Part shown: positions 47,965-54,712 of the stretch, in pieces
Layout: every line of letters starts with the position of its first letter
How positions within the stretch are numbered: position 1 is the stretch's first letter
Source of the DNA: Pigmentibacter sp. JX0631
GTDB taxonomy: Bacteria; Bdellovibrionota_B; Oligoflexia; Silvanigrellales; Silvanigrellaceae
Assembly: GCF_029873255.1 (NCBI RefSeq)
Contig: NZ_CP123622.1
Coordinates: 1,452,501-1,516,500, forward strand
DNA length: 64,000 nucleotides
Direction: 5' to 3'
The notes under the pieces: generated by a model
What the model saw: the letters and a program-made list of their open reading frames with translations, nothing else
Databases searched by the model: none
What the model was told of the DNA's origin: nothing
Made by a program: the position numbers and the translations under genes

Positions 47965-47978
47965 ATTAGTTACTTCTT
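47956..47978. terminator. Bidirectional terminator-like hairpin over two stop codons
   Basis: AAGAAGTA-GATTAGT-TACTTCTT is a perfect 8-bp stem spanning the stops of the thioesterase (47964) and the convergent lipoprotein (47970). The plus-strand exit is TTCTTTATTATATT, U-rich; the minus-strand exit (TTCTTCC) is weaker. Confidence 0.6.
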
Positions 47979-49010
47979 TATTATATTATTAGTATATACA
48001 GAATAACTATAAAAATTTGGAGCTGCATCTAATGATTTAGCAAAAATCACTTTAAAACTAACAGTTCCACTTGACGGAAATAATTGTGGAATACTTCCAT
48101 TTTTTGTAATTTCATATGAAGCAATAGTAATATTATTACTTGATATTGCCTTTATCTTATTCTTTATACTTGGATTTGTATCTGTTTTAATTGCTTTAAA
48201 ATATGCATCAACTTTTTCATAACTTGATAAATCCTTGGATGAATCAACTACTAAATATTCTTGTGCTGGATTTTTTGTATTAATAAAAATGTAGTGACCA
48301 TTATAAAATGTAAATTTATTTGAAAAATCGTGATGTACTTCAAATTTGGTACTATCTACAGAATATACTGGAACTGAATTTACTAAAATATTTCTGTTTG
48401 TATCAATTGTAGGGACAAATATTTCAACCCTTGTAAAAGGAGTTTCATAATTACTAATAACTGTAAATAATTCACTTATAACAATTGATATTATAGGATT
48501 TGCAGAAAAATCTACAGGTGTAATATTAGCAACAGAATAGATTATCGGTGAAAATTCTGCAGAATTAGATTTTAAATTAAAAACAATTGGATTGTCAGAA
48601 AATTTTTGAGTTAATTTCGAACTTTCAGCAGAGACAGTGTACTCGGCAATAACGGAATTACTATTTTTAACAGAAAAGCCTGTTATTTTTAGTTCGCAAT
48701 TTGTATCTCCTTTTTTAATAATTAATCTTTCATTACTCGTATCATCAAGATTCCATTCTTCATTATCAGCCTTACCAAAACAGTTACTATAAGTACCTTT
48801 TAGCACAAATGTATTAGCCTTAATTTTATTATATGTATCTTCAATTTTAATTTTATTTTCTAAATTCATTGAAACTTGAACTTGGCCTACAGAAACAGGA
48901 TCAAAAGTTTCTGTATAGCGATTTTGTTCTCCTGAACCGCCACGTTTACAACTCATAACCAGTGGTATAGACAACAGTGAAACCAAAGATAAACAAACAT
49001 ATTTTTTCAT
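47970..49010 (-). CDS. Putative lipoprotein downstream of the protease operon
   Basis: A 346-residue protein with a lipoprotein signal and lipobox PLVMSC, followed by Lys-Arg-Gly-Gly-Ser. The mature part is beta-rich and Asn/Ser-heavy (FSVKNSNSVIAEYTVSAES, IISIVISELFTVISNYE), with a C23-independent Cys pair (NCFGK, NCELKI). I do not recognise a family. It follows the second propeptide-like gene by 260 bases on the same strand, so it may have its own promoter. An envelope anchor or binding protein associated with the proteases is possible but unproved. Confidence 0.65.
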   Translation of the reverse strand: MKKYVCLSLVSLLSIPLVMSCKRGGSGEQNRYTETFDPVSVGQVQVSMNLENKIKIEDTYNKIKANTFVLKGTYSNCFGKADNEEWNLDDTSNERLIIKKGDTNCELKITGFSVKNSNSVIAEYTVSAESSKLTQKFSDNPIVFNLKSNSAEFSPIIYSVANITPVDFSANPIISIVISELFTVISNYETPFTRVEIFVPTIDTNRNILVNSVPVYSVDSTKFEVHHDFSNKFTFYNGHYIFINTKNPAQEYLVVDSSKDLSSYEKVDAYFKAIKTDTNPSIKNKIKAISSNNITIASYEITKNGSIPQLFPSSGTVSFKVIFAKSLDAAPNFYSYSVYTNNIIKK

Positions 49011-49270: not shown

Positions 49271-49882
49271 TTATAAAGTTTCTTGAAAATTTTCTATAAC
49301 TTCCACACTAGCTTCAGAAACATAATTTAGTTTTTGCAGAATGCTAAGTGATCTCGATATTGTTAAGTTTTTTGGAATTTTTACTAAATAATAACCAATA
49401 TTTGGGTATCTTTTTATAATTTCAAATGACTTATCTGTAAATTCTAAATTATTTTTTGTTTTAACAATAATAACTCCGCTAAGGATCCCAAAATTTTCGT
49501 TTGAGTTGTTATAAACAACCTGATTTGTATAGCCTAAATTTTTAGCGTTTTTATCCTGAGTAGTTTTATGAATTGAAAAATTTTTAGTCTCAAGAACAAA
49601 CTCACTTTTATCATTTTCAATAGCATTTCCATTTTTTAATTTATTTTTTCTATAATTAGCAATAAGCTCAGGATAAACTGTGTATTTAATTCCCCCTTGT
49701 ACAAAACTTTCACCTTTATTAAATTTTTTTAATAAATCTTTCTCATTAATTGTATAATTGTCATTATTCATATCTTTTTCGTTACTTTTATTTTCTAAAA
49801 TTTTCTCACTTGCATAACTACAAATTTGCGCAGATAAAGGTAAGAAAAAACTTATAATGGTTAAAATTGCTTTGAGTTTCAT
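49271..49882 (-). CDS. Detached subtilisin-propeptide-like secreted protein (copy B)
   Basis: A 203-residue exported protein (signal peptide ending SYA before SEK) placed 33 bases after protease B. Its C-terminal 60 residues, IIKRYPNIGYYLVKIPKNLT then SRSLSILQKLNYVSEASVEV, have the beta-alpha-beta pattern of an I9/subtilisin propeptide, and the end VEVIENFQETL would be the segment that sits in the active-site cleft. The N-terminal part carries ESFVQGGIKYTVY, shared with copy A (NFVQGGMNYTIF). Copy B lacks about 45 residues in the middle relative to copy A. It is proposed to fold and/or inhibit the neighbouring protease in trans. Similarity is judged by eye. Confidence 0.65.
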   Translation of the reverse strand: MKLKAILTIISFFLPLSAQICSYASEKILENKSNEKDMNNDNYTINEKDLLKKFNKGESFVQGGIKYTVYPELIANYRKNKLKNGNAIENDKSEFVLETKNFSIHKTTQDKNAKNLGYTNQVVYNNSNENFGILSGVIIVKTKNNLEFTDKSFEIIKRYPNIGYYLVKIPKNLTISRSLSILQKLNYVSEASVEVIENFQETL

Positions 49883-49915
49883 AATATCTCCATAACATTT
49901 TTAAAGTAAATTAAT

Positions 49916-51883
49916 TCAATGACCAGAAACTTTTAATTTCCAACCTTTAAAAGTTGCATCAATTTTGTGAATACCAGTATTAATTATTCTTAATTTCCAT
50001 TTACCGGCGCTTTCTTCTCCATAAAAAGCGTTTGATTGGAGTTGCATGTCAGTCAAATTTCCATTTTTTGAAAATGCATTAGCTGCATTCCAAATAATAC
50101 TTTTAGTCCCGCTTGGACTAATCAATTCTAAACTATTGTCACCAATATATTTACTATTTAAAGAAACTCTTATTTGTAAACTTTCAATTACTAAAGAATC
50201 TTTTTTATCAATTTGAATTTCGGAAGTAAATCCATTTAAATCACCTGATTTAATTAATTCATTGAAATTCATTCCCACGGGTTTTACCCAATCATTTTCG
50301 ATATAATTTCCTAAAATGCTACTATAATTTTTTGCTAATTTAACAGCTTCTGCTACATTTATTCTGCCAAATCCGTACCAGTTTGAAAAATGAAACCCTG
50401 CCTTATTTGTTACCCAACCTAATTCTGCTTGATAATTGCTACCATTTTCTAATTGAATATTAATTCCATTAAAACTGCTATCAACTTGCGTTGCTGTTTT
50501 AGCTAAAATATATTTTACATCACGCCATGTTAAGTTTGGATTAGCTTCAAGAATTAAAGCTATACTTCCAGACGTAACGGGAGTTGCTGAAGAAGTACCA
50601 TTCATCGAATTTGTATAATTACCATTTTTATTTTCGTTGATATCACAAGCATTAAAAGAATTTCCTATTTGTAAAATAGGATCTTTCTTTGTATAGTCTA
50701 TAACTTTACTTGCGCCATATTCTTTACCACTCACGTCTGTAGTAAATATTGCTGGTTCTCCAAGAGTTGGTCTGTATTTTGACCAATCAATTGTTTCGTT
50801 AATATTTTTTAATTTTTCTTCTATCCAAGCCTTATTTTTTCCAAACTCTCCACCAGGGGCGCTGATCCATAAAGAAGAGCCTGTTGTAGAATATGATGAT
50901 TTTTTTCCCACTGCGTTTAATGCACCAACAGTTATAACTTCAGCCATTGTTGTTTCAAAATTCATATTGGAATTTTGACAAGATAGCTTAAATTTAACTG
51001 CACTTTCACAACTACTATCAGATCCTAAACCAAGACTGCTAAAGCCATTTCCAGCAGCTTTTACATAGATGGCACCTTTTCCATTTCTTAATGTTTTTGT
51101 ACCTAATTTAAATGCTTCAGCAGATGCTTTTACTGAAGGAACATCTTCTTTTAGCTGACTCAAATTATTTGATCCAAAACTCATACTAAAAATATCATTT
51201 CCTTTAGCTGCGTCTGAAGCACCTAAAGAATCTAAAAAATTTTGAAAAGTTTGGCCTTCTCGAGAAATAGTATTATAACCTGCTAAATGTGCTCTTGGTG
51301 CAACTCCTGAACCTCCAAATCCTAAATTACTGCGCATTGCAATTATCCCAGAAACCATTGTTCCATGATCACGATCATCATCGTGCGTTGGAGAAGGATC
51401 ATTTTTGTCAAAACCATTGTTTCTAAAATTAATTGACCAAGTTTTAGATTTATTTATTACATTTTCAATATTTGGAGATAATGAAGGATGTTTAATTTCT
51501 AAACCTGAATCTACAACACCTACATAAACACCATTTCCACTGAGGCATTCATTTTTCAAGACAGAGTAAACATTGATATCTTCTCCTTCTTTAGGACTAT
51601 CTGTAGTAAAGGAGGTACTTCCAGTGTTGTATAAATGCCATTGGTACTTTCCTAAAGGATTTTTACTTTCATCCAAAAGATCTGTACAAAATTTATCAGT
51701 TGAAACAACCGAATCTGGTTTATTATCTTCATCAATCAGCAAATCATTTGATTTATTTTCTTCAGGATATTTATTTTCTGATTTAATGTTTTCACTATCA
51801 TAATCAATATTTTTTTTACAAGATGACAACATAGATATAACTAAAGCAGAAAATAATGCGATATTTTTAAATCTAATTTGCAT
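49916..51883 (-). CDS. S8 subtilisin/kexin-like protease lipoprotein with P-domain (copy B)
   Basis: A 655-residue serine protease. The lipobox MLSSC places the lipidated Cys at 22. The catalytic triad is Asp125 (VVDSGLEI), His173 (RDHGTMVSGI) and Ser431 (NGTSSATP), with oxyanion Asn279 in KAAGNGF. From about residue 545 a P-domain (proprotein-convertase homology) is visible: SKYIGDNSLELISPSGTKSI and ESAGKWKLRIINTG. No propeptide region lies between the signal and the catalytic domain; the first 65 residues are low-complexity linker. It closely resembles copy A across the whole length. It follows propeptide-like A by 46 bases and precedes propeptide-like B. Confidence 0.9.
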   Translation of the reverse strand: MQIRFKNIALFSALVISMLSSCKKNIDYDSENIKSENKYPEENKSNDLLIDEDNKPDSVVSTDKFCTDLLDESKNPLGKYQWHLYNTGSTSFTTDSPKEGEDINVYSVLKNECLSGNGVYVGVVDSGLEIKHPSLSPNIENVINKSKTWSINFRNNGFDKNDPSPTHDDDRDHGTMVSGIIAMRSNLGFGGSGVAPRAHLAGYNTISREGQTFQNFLDSLGASDAAKGNDIFSMSFGSNNLSQLKEDVPSVKASAEAFKLGTKTLRNGKGAIYVKAAGNGFSSLGLGSDSSCESAVKFKLSCQNSNMNFETTMAEVITVGALNAVGKKSSYSTTGSSLWISAPGGEFGKNKAWIEEKLKNINETIDWSKYRPTLGEPAIFTTDVSGKEYGASKVIDYTKKDPILQIGNSFNACDINENKNGNYTNSMNGTSSATPVTSGSIALILEANPNLTWRDVKYILAKTATQVDSSFNGINIQLENGSNYQAELGWVTNKAGFHFSNWYGFGRINVAEAVKLAKNYSSILGNYIENDWVKPVGMNFNELIKSGDLNGFTSEIQIDKKDSLVIESLQIRVSLNSKYIGDNSLELISPSGTKSIIWNAANAFSKNGNLTDMQLQSNAFYGEESAGKWKLRIINTGIHKIDATFKGWKLKVSGH

Positions 51884-51929
51884 TTTTACTCCAAAAAATT
51901 AATTATGAGAGAGAAAATCTAAAATTAAA

Positions 51930-52679
51930 CTACATTGGTTTCTTGAAATTTTCTAAAACTTCAACATTAATAGAAGATTTCTTTTCTCCATCAACTGTAA
52001 CACTTGCTGGATTCAAAGATTTTAATTTATCTGTAGCTTCCTTTATCTGAACATTTTCTGGATACTTAATTACATATAATCCCATATTTTTATATGATTT
52101 TAAAACTTTATAGTTACTATTAGGTACTTTTATTTTACTTACTTCAGGATCTACTTTTAAAATTATATTTCCAGTTATTACTGCAAATTTTTTAGTTTTA
52201 TTATTAAAAGCTACTTTATAGTTTTCATTAATTCTAACATCACCGCTATCATTTTTAGGAGAAATTTTTCTATCTACGGAAACTTTTTGCTTTAATTTTT
52301 TATTATCACTTCCTTCAAAATAAATTTTAAATTCACCTTTATCAAGCAATACAGTTTTTGGAGCGCTGACATTTAAATCAAAAGAATTTTTTCCAGCACT
52401 CTCATCATTAGAAAAATCCCGAAGATCTTCTTTACCAGTTGATGCCTTTAAACCTTTAAATATTGTATAATTCATTCCGCCTTGAACAAAATTTTCTTCT
52501 ACAGCTAAATTCTTTTTAACGCTTTCAATAAATTTTTTCTCTTCAATTTCTTTTGACTTTTCATTATCTGATAAAGACAAATCACTAGAAAAAGAGTTTT
52601 GAGAATTATCAATAGCAAAAGAGTTGCTGCTATATAACAATACTAAACCAGAAAGGAGTAAGAATGACTTAGATTTCAT
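51930..52679 (-). CDS. Detached subtilisin-propeptide-like secreted protein (copy A)
   Basis: A 249-residue exported protein, signal peptide ending NSFA before IDNS, 53 bases after protease A. The C-terminal region reads KVLKSYKNMGLYVIKYPENV, then KEATDKLKSLNPASVTV, and ends VEVLENFKKPM, matching copy B position by position and resembling the fold of a subtilisin propeptide. A central insertion rich in Lys, Asp and Ser (about residues 95-140) is absent in copy B. A trans-acting intramolecular-chaperone-like role, as known for ORF2 of Aeromonas sobria with ASP, is the favoured interpretation. Catalytic motifs are absent. Confidence 0.65.
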   Translation of the reverse strand: MKSKSFLLLSGLVLLYSSNSFAIDNSQNSFSSDLSLSDNEKSKEIEEKKFIESVKKNLAVEENFVQGGMNYTIFKGLKASTGKEDLRDFSNDESAGKNSFDLNVSAPKTVLLDKGEFKIYFEGSDNKKLKQKVSVDRKISPKNDSGDVRINENYKVAFNNKTKKFAVITGNIILKVDPEVSKIKVPNSNYKVLKSYKNMGLYVIKYPENVQIKEATDKLKSLNPASVTVDGEKKSSINVEVLENFKKPM

Positions 52680-52732
52680 AATATTTTCCTCAATTTTATA
52701 TTTTTAAATCAAATTGTTATCCAAAAAATTCT

Positions 52733-54712
52733 TTACAATGGCTGTTTTGAACCAGAAAACTGTAATCGAATTCCTTTAAAAGTAACATTTTTAGAATTTA
52801 ATCCTGCATTTATAATTTTTACAGACCAGTTTCCTGAACTATTTTCCCCATAAAATGCGTTACTTTGTATTGGCATTTTTACTAAATTCCCATTTCCAGC
52901 AAAAGCATTTCCTACATGCCAGATAATACTTTTTGTTCCACTTGGTGAAGTTAATTCTATACCAACATCTCCAATATAATCGCTATCAATAGATACTTCT
53001 GCTCTTACCGATTCTATTTTCATATTATTTGGTTTACTTACAGTAGGTATATTGTAAACAATTCCTTTTGCACCTACAGGCACACTAATCGAAGTTGCAA
53101 ATCCTCTAGCAGGATGCCAAGGAAGTTCAACATAGTTTCCTAAATTAACATTGTAGTATTTTGCTAATTTAACAGCTTCAGCTACATTAATTCTTCCGAA
53201 TCCATACCAGTTTGAAAAATGAAACCCAGCTGCATTTGTTGTCCAACCATCTTCCACTTGATATTCATCTTGATTTGCTAATTTAACTTTTACTCCTACA
53301 AAATCTTTATCAACTTTTGTCGCAGTTTTAGCCATTATATATTTCACATCACGCCAAGTTAGATTTGGATTTGCTTCAAGTATTAATGCTAAACTTCCTG
53401 AAGTAACAGGTGTTGCAGAAGAAGTACCATTCATTGTATTTGTATAATCAAAATTAGGATTTAAAAGATTTCCATCATCATCTGAAGCTGTACCAGCATT
53501 AAATGAATTTCTTATACTGAAAACATCGTCAAGATTAAATTCACTATCTGAATTTACAATTTTGCTCATTCCATATCTTGAGCCCATAACATCAGTTGTT
53601 ACTATAGCTGGTTCACCGAGTGATGGCCTTAAAGTTTTCCAATCGACAGATCTCCCAAATCTTTGATAATTTGCATCTATCCAATCTTTATCAAATCCAA
53701 ATTCTCCTCCCGGAGCACTTATCCAAAGAGATGATCCTGTTGTTGAATAACTAGTTTTCTTTCCATTTGCATTTAATGCGCCTACAGTGATGACTTCTGG
53801 TATAGAATTATCTGTATTCATATTTGAATCTTGGCAAGACACTTTTAACTTAACAGCCATTGAGCATGAAGCTACACTTGCAGGATCTCTTCCTAATTTA
53901 GAAAATCCATTACCAGCAGCCTTAACGTATAAAGCGCCTTTACCATCTCTTAAATGTCTTGTTCCATATTTATATGCAGTTAATGCCCCTAAAGTAATGG
54001 GATCATCAGATGATATTTGCTCAATATTGTTATCTCCATAACTCATATTGAAAATATCATTACCTTTTGAATCATCAGATCCACCAAGTGAATCAACAAA
54101 ATTTTGAAATTGTTGAACTCCAGCTTCTGCTTGAATAATATTGTAGCCAGTAAGTTTCGCTCTAGGAGCAACTCCCGAGCCTCCAAAACCTAAATTACTG
54201 CGCATTGCAATTATTCCACTTACCATTGTTCCATGATCATCATCGTCATCAGCAACTGGGGAAGGATCATTGCTAAGTAAGCGATTATCTCTGAAGTTAA
54301 TTGATCTTGCTTTAGTATTATTTTCAACATTTTTCTTTAAAGATGGATGTGATATTTGTAAGCCAGAATCAACAACTGCAACACTAACTCCTTGTCCACT
54401 GATACAATCATCTTTTAATACTGTATCAACATTAATATCTTCACCTGGAGTACCCGGTGAGGTTGCAAAAGCTTTTTGACCTGTATTTTTCAAGTGCCAT
54501 TGATACTTCCCTAAAGGATTTTTTGACGAATCAGATAAATCAGTACAATGTCTTTCTGTGTCTCCAGCATTTAAAACATTAGAGTTTTGTGTAGAAAGAT
54601 ATTTATCTTCTGCATTATTTGCTGAATTATTTGATTTTCCGCATGATGACAGAAAAGAAACGGCAAAAGCAGATACAGAAAAAAGCGCAAGATATTTGCC
54701 ATTTAAACTCAT
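52733..54712 (-). CDS. S8 subtilisin/kexin-like protease lipoprotein with P-domain (copy A)
   Basis: A 659-residue serine protease, first gene of the operon. Lipobox FLSSC gives Cys24. The triad is Asp115 (VVDSGLQI), His160 (DDHGTMVSGI) and Ser431 (NGTSSATP), with Asn268 in KAAGNGF. A Cys-rich feature (ASCSMAVKLKVSC) matches copy B. The P-domain covers about residues 560-655 (DYIGDVGIELTSPSGTKSI). There is no N-terminal propeptide: the catalytic domain begins about 80 residues after the lipid anchor, preceded by an Asn/Ser linker. GAGG sits ahead of the ATG. Likely a cell-surface or periplasmic protease that relies on a separate chaperone protein. Confidence 0.9.
   Translation of the reverse strand: MSLNGKYLALFSVSAFAVSFLSSCGKSNNSANNAEDKYLSTQNSNVLNAGDTERHCTDLSDSSKNPLGKYQWHLKNTGQKAFATSPGTPGEDINVDTVLKDDCISGQGVSVAVVDSGLQISHPSLKKNVENNTKARSINFRDNRLLSNDPSPVADDDDDHGTMVSGIIAMRSNLGFGGSGVAPRAKLTGYNIIQAEAGVQQFQNFVDSLGGSDDSKGNDIFNMSYGDNNIEQISSDDPITLGALTAYKYGTRHLRDGKGALYVKAAGNGFSKLGRDPASVASCSMAVKLKVSCQDSNMNTDNSIPEVITVGALNANGKKTSYSTTGSSLWISAPGGEFGFDKDWIDANYQRFGRSVDWKTLRPSLGEPAIVTTDVMGSRYGMSKIVNSDSEFNLDDVFSIRNSFNAGTASDDDGNLLNPNFDYTNTMNGTSSATPVTSGSLALILEANPNLTWRDVKYIMAKTATKVDKDFVGVKVKLANQDEYQVEDGWTTNAAGFHFSNWYGFGRINVAEAVKLAKYYNVNLGNYVELPWHPARGFATSISVPVGAKGIVYNIPTVSKPNNMKIESVRAEVSIDSDYIGDVGIELTSPSGTKSIIWHVGNAFAGNGNLVKMPIQSNAFYGENSSGNWSVKIINAGLNSKNVTFKGIRLQFSGSKQPL

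Follow-up and report, generated by a model that had tools for sequence, protein, structure and literature searches.

The locus raises the question of how two kexin-like proteases that have no propeptide in their own chain could mature, and whether the small secreted protein encoded beside each of them stands in for that propeptide. The window is the whole stretch of DNA analysed, 64,000 nucleotides from Pigmentibacter sp. JX0631. We read the locus as tandem units of the ASP/ORF2 type, in which the gene adjoining each protease would encode a separate secreted propeptide that folds and silences the enzyme, and put the probability of this reading at about 0.88. The features concerned are as follows.

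52733..54712, minus strand: protease A, 659 aa, kexin-like S8 lipoprotein with a C-terminal P-domain; triad D115/H160/S431
54641..54712, minus strand: signal peptide and lipobox of protease A (LSSC, Cys24), the Cys invariant in 12 relatives
51930..52679, minus strand: partner A, 249 aa, predicted secreted external propeptide/folding chaperone; AlphaFold model whose fold search leads to 3wqb_B, that is, ORF2
52437..52502, minus strand: conserved N-terminal beta-hairpin of partner A, residues 60-81 including NFVQGGMNYT, pLDDT about 90
51933..52223, minus strand: propeptide-like C-terminal domain of partner A, residues 153-249, tail -KKPM-COOH
49916..51883, minus strand: protease B, 655 aa, kexin-like S8 lipoprotein with a P-domain; triad D125/H173/S431
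49271..49882, minus strand: partner B, 203 aa, predicted secreted external propeptide/folding chaperone
49664..49711, minus strand: conserved N-terminal block of partner B (ESFVQGGIKYTVYPEL), residues 58-73
49274..49528, minus strand: propeptide-like C-terminal domain of partner B, residues 119-203, tail -QETL-COOH

We assigned signal peptides, lipoboxes and membrane helices by eye and pattern. The ORF map agrees exactly with the original prediction in the order protease A, partner A, protease B, partner B and in the gaps of 53, 46 and 33 bp. No terminator-like site was found in these three gaps, and promoter-like matches at the tandem are at chance level, so that a single operon is plausible. 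Immediately 3' of partner B, at 47970-49010 on the minus strand, lies a predicted 346-aa lipoprotein that matches no family over cut-off (DUF7591, E = 2e-4); similar-looking lipoproteins occupy the same position in two other loci (L020 and L025).

Proteases A and B are 58% identical end to end, and both match Peptidase_S8 (PF00082; E = 5e-45 for A and 5e-48 for B) and P_proprotein (PF01483; E = 1e-13 and 5e-16) well over the cut-offs. An alignment of 12 relatives shows no variation at the lipobox Cys24 or at the triad D115/H160/S431 (protease A numbering). Lipobox, triad and P-domain are common to both enzymes, as had been claimed from the sequence at the outset. The further claim that neither protease has a propeptide in its own chain also holds: no Pfam propeptide domain was matched at E<=1 in either, and only a variable linker separates the lipobox Cys from the start of the catalytic domain at the conserved QWHL. 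A propeptide would therefore have to be supplied in trans. Among solved structures, ASP of Aeromonas sobria (3hjr; E = 2e-77 for A and 1e-72 for B) is the nearest to both enzymes in sequence, with Kex2 and furin far behind, which supports the choice of ASP as the precedent. Indeed, the ASP/ORF2 system (3HJR, 3WQB; PF18492) likewise combines an S8 domain, a P-domain, the lack of a propeptide and an adjacent downstream partner gene. Assignment of A and B to the canonical kexins/proprotein convertases (S8B) was rejected, because the required N-terminal in-chain propeptide is absent and the enzymes are propeptide-deficient relatives of that group; NCBIfam yielded distant subtilase names only, all below cut-off. 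Lipoprotein proteases are common among the distant relatives, and lipidation is thus not peculiar to the A/B locus.

The genome encodes six S8 proteases, four of them ASP-like and each of those four accompanied by a partner. Hence the unit, originally described as doubled, is doubled in the A/B tandem and not just doubled, since two more ASP-like pairs lie elsewhere in the genome. In pair C (L008) the partner is encoded downstream and is a lipoprotein; in pair D (L007) it is encoded upstream (L007:3955-4677) and has an N-terminal hydrophobic, membrane-like helix. L009 and L010 are the other two S8 genes, and searches with partner profiles gave no further partner match in the genome for either. 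The genus has the D type at five further sites and, additionally, one orphan: genome G006 encodes an intact D-type partner (L163:6647-7258, minus strand) with no S8 protease within the 12 kb examined, which is either a relic left after loss of the protease or a free inhibitor. Upstream partners with an N-terminal transmembrane-like helix were also observed at L055:2934-3653, L068:2760-3506, L071:3114-3917 and L076:2819-3562, the hosts of these and of L007 being Bdellovibrionota and one proteobacterial bin. Judging from their sequences, such helix-bearing partners may be membrane-tethered external propeptides. D-like partners also occur in Bdellovibrionaceae, where they score over the ORF_2_N cut-off, and in Halobacteriovoraceae.

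Partners A and B are 26% identical over 188 aa (E = 3e-14), and the elements that they were said to share, namely, the E(N/S)FVQGG-x-x-YT block, the C-terminal block and the VEV(L/I)ENF ending, are all present in both; the ending is followed by a four-residue tail, -KKPM in partner A and -QETL in partner B. The window partners match neither ORF_2_N (PF18492) nor the Inhibitor_I9 and S8_pro Pfam models at E<=1, single-sequence PDB searches with them returned nothing, and a PDB profile search gave irrelevant matches only. Partner B has a sub-threshold match to Fervidolysin_NPro-like over residues 154-191. Among the 16 relatives in the genus partner alignment, three match ORF_2_N and seven match Fervidolysin_NPro-like, all below the Pfam cut-offs; the best ORF_2_N match in the genus, that of a partner B orthologue, has an E-value of 9.8e-5 and 23.0 of the 29.2 bits of the cut-off. 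Two recruits of the iterated partner profile (L051 and L055) score over the ORF_2_N cut-off, and one of them, L051, also matches the genus partner profile (E = 4e-16), which makes it a bridge; in addition, it has a sub-threshold S8_pro match. Direct profile-profile comparison of the A/B/C partners with classic gammaproteobacterial ORF2 is weak (5-11% probability). The profile of the upstream-type partners, by contrast, matches the A/B/C partners at 96% and classic ORF2 at 93%, and once intermediates are added the A/B/C partners reach classic ORF2 at 74%, compared with at most 0.3% in 20 column-shuffled controls. Thus, the A/B/C partners are linked to ORF2 through intermediates and fold.

In the AlphaFold model of partner A, the C-terminal domain is confident (pLDDT about 72-93 for the block from residue 151) and the VQGG-x-x-YT block forms a confident N-terminal hairpin. 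Where the propeptide fold has its first helix, the model shows a loop, which sets it apart from ORF2. A fold search against 350,542 PDB chains nevertheless ranked ORF2 in its complex with ASP (3wqb_B) first with a probability of 1.00, in line with the propeptide-like fold originally proposed for the partners; the E-value of this match is modest (0.0099), with a TM-score of 0.60 on ORF2, and the subtilisin propeptides 2z56-2z58 appear lower down the list. The model of the D partner has the complete beta-alpha-beta-beta-alpha-beta order of a full S8-propeptide fold. ORF2 is again first among the 350,542 chains (TM-score 0.67), followed by PC1/3 prodomains bound to furin (0.77), and the top six include the subtilisin BPN' prosegment (0.71). 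Furin, Kex2 and PC1/3 (S8B) resemble the present enzymes in joining an S8 domain to a P-domain, whereas their prodomain is part of the same chain and here the propeptide would be a separate protein. ORF2 and the partners described here share an N-terminal extension, a central body and a C-terminal tail of the x-P-x type.

Each of the seven well-assembled genus genomes (that of the window and six others) carries the four-gene tandem at the same locus, so that the arrangement is more than chance; it is missing only from one further genome of the genus, a draft of 72% completeness. In all seven, the upstream neighbour encodes a 206-aa protein that is by sequence a 5-formyltetrahydrofolate cyclo-ligase. 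Two of the matching loci are labelled Spirobacillus cienkowskii and Fluviispira multicolorata, the latter a member of Silvanigrellaceae. Strict pairing stands for the A/B/C type, with 16/16 proteins found by the partner profile in 56 genomes adjoining a protease, and fails for the D type in the single orphan. The protease and partner trees are concordant, both with the topology D | (C,(A,B)); the A clade is supported in the protease tree (99) and the B clade in the partner tree (95), the other A/B nodes being unresolved without contradiction between the two trees. Gene order, family, fold match, pairing and concordant history are direct observations. Concordant trees, together with a tandem that is present across the genus, indicate that A/B is an old whole-unit duplication in which both genes were copied before the genus radiated, as the original prediction had supposed of the duplication as such.

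Beyond the genus, the iterated profile recruits partners beside ASP-like proteases in Gallionellaceae, Woeseiaceae, Thiomicrorhabdus, Halobacteriovoraceae, Bdellovibrionaceae, a SAR324 bin and an acidobacterial bin, with taxonomy as given in the record titles and several of the loci being metagenome bins. Tandem protease-partner arrays are found in the Thiomicrorhabdus bin (L100:1002-6121) and the SAR324 bin (L066:3788-9898). They arose independently, and the duplication in Thiomicrorhabdus is recent, since its copies lie close together in the trees. Two further loci, from genomes of the same taxonomic class (L018 and L019, in G023 and G047), encode ASP-like proteases at 33-36% identity, next to genes for proteins of 220 aa and 159 aa in which the partner profile recognised no partner.

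The C-terminal tails bear on how partner and protease might fit together. In the structure of the ASP-ORF2 complex, ORF2 places its final Gln-Pro-Lys at the active site of ASP, which prefers Lys at P1, the C-terminal residue of ORF2 being Lys (PMC5638518). The window partners end in Lys-Pro-Met (A) and Glu-Thr-Leu (B), termini of the x-Pro-x type are frequent throughout the set, and the window C-termini resemble the Q-P-K tail in sequence. Unlike in ASP/ORF2, the A/B tails end in Met or Leu (11/12) and not in Lys, and the Asp of the SNxD motif, which we take from Kex2 and furin to be the acidic S1 residue of kexins, is replaced by Asn in 12/12 A and B proteases. Together, these substitutions suggest that A/B specificity may have shifted away from basic P1 residues. 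A partner sub-family ending in ...WW....R/K was observed at L082, L083, L086, L087, L096, L100 and L104, and the proteases of these loci keep the kexin S1 Asp. All pairs of this Trp-Trp type, from Thiomicrorhabdus and others, combine Asp at S1 with an R/K tail, which would fit a basic tail residue at P1. A clean rule linking a basic partner C-terminus to the S1 Asp was rejected as only partial, being broken by L055, L068 and G003_A.

Compatible with the tandem ASP/ORF2 reading, and concerning specificity only, is the proposal that the two partners are interchangeable and that the tandem provides gene dosage or redundancy. Within genomes, partners A and B are 23-33% identical and diverge much faster than the proteases they serve (54-59%), so the fit may not need to be tight, and the propeptides of Bacillus subtilisins are promiscuous (PMC10580911). 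Moreover, the correlation of evolutionary distances shows no preference for the adjacent pairing of A and B with their neighbours (r = 0.86) over a full swap (r = 0.90), so that partners are assigned to proteases by gene order only. Mixed swaps between genomes, on the other hand, abolish the correlation (down to -0.05), both partners are retained in every well-assembled genome, and the third residue from the end is Glu in all B tails and in no A tail. Interchangeability is somewhat less likely than not. A more specific proposal, which we advance tentatively and at less than even odds, is that the genus holds insulated protease/external-propeptide pairs, kept apart by divergence of the x-P-x tail and the S1-S4 pocket, and that the D partner would be a membrane-tethered, upstream-encoded foldase derived from a subtilase propeptide, with a lipoprotein as its client. 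The latter would work like the lipase-specific foldases Lif/LipH, which are described as membrane-anchored steric chaperones of a separately encoded secreted enzyme (PMC7046727, PMC13381987); those serve lipases, and the likeness is one of working principle only.

For the A/B units we infer complex formation, chaperoning, inhibition and localisation along the following lines. Each lipoprotein protease would be made without a propeptide, and the neighbouring gene would supply one as a secreted protein. In the periplasm, the ferredoxin-like C-terminal domain of the partner would pack on the catalytic domain and template its folding, with the conserved N-terminal hairpin (VQGG-x-x-YT) providing extra contacts. 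The last residues of the partner (x-P-M or x-T-L) would occupy the active-site cleft as a propeptide does after cleavage, holding the enzyme inactive until release or degradation of the partner yields an active lipid-anchored protease, probably at the outer membrane or cell surface. Given the position of the ORF2 tail at the ASP active site and the likeness of the window tails, the partner is by analogy likely to fold the protease, after which its tail would stay in the cleft and inhibit the enzyme as a reaction product does.

The same fold and cleft-binding tail would equally serve inhibition, and the small proteins could accordingly be no folding chaperones but immunity proteins or stand-alone inhibitors of propeptide-like fold, which would protect the cell envelope by silencing proteases that had already folded unaided. 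ASP is also inhibited by ORF2 (PMC5638518), and malaria parasites have a stand-alone propeptide-like inhibitor of SUB1, a separate protein of propeptide fold that binds a subtilase (PMC6993865). A and B have no propeptide of their own, and each partner gene is conserved beside its protease; the N-terminal block, outside the propeptide domain, likewise stays conserved. Stand-alone inhibitors of this kind are, by contrast, known to target proteases that retain their own propeptide, and a purely inhibitory role is therefore improbable. It is hardly credible that the small proteins belong to the envelope without any relation to the proteases and share an operon with them by coincidence, for although the N-terminal halves of the small proteins are short and of low complexity and single-sequence database matches are weak, ORF2 is the top fold match twice (partner A and the D partner), partners adjoin ASP-like proteases across several phyla, and the trees are concordant.

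The tandem ASP/ORF2 reading places the locus in a known kind of system, and its novelty is that of a variant and not of a new category. A 2022 survey still names ASP as the one exception among subtilases to having a propeptide of their own (PMC9549277), and asp/orf2 operons were described in five named genera in 2017 (PMC5638518). Different from ASP/ORF2 are the lipidation of the proteases, the tandem duplication and the presence of two additional ASP-like pairs elsewhere in the genome, one with a predicted membrane-anchored upstream partner and another with a lipoprotein partner. New here are thus multi-paralogue, lipidated units and tethered upstream partners; no description of a membrane-tethered upstream partner was found in the literature searched. 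External propeptides would now extend to Bdellovibrionota and, on metagenome contigs, to SAR324, an acidobacterial bin, Gallionellaceae and Thiomicrorhabdus. Furthermore, four paralogous pairs within a single genome, conserved across species, offer a natural experiment on the specificity of propeptides acting in trans.
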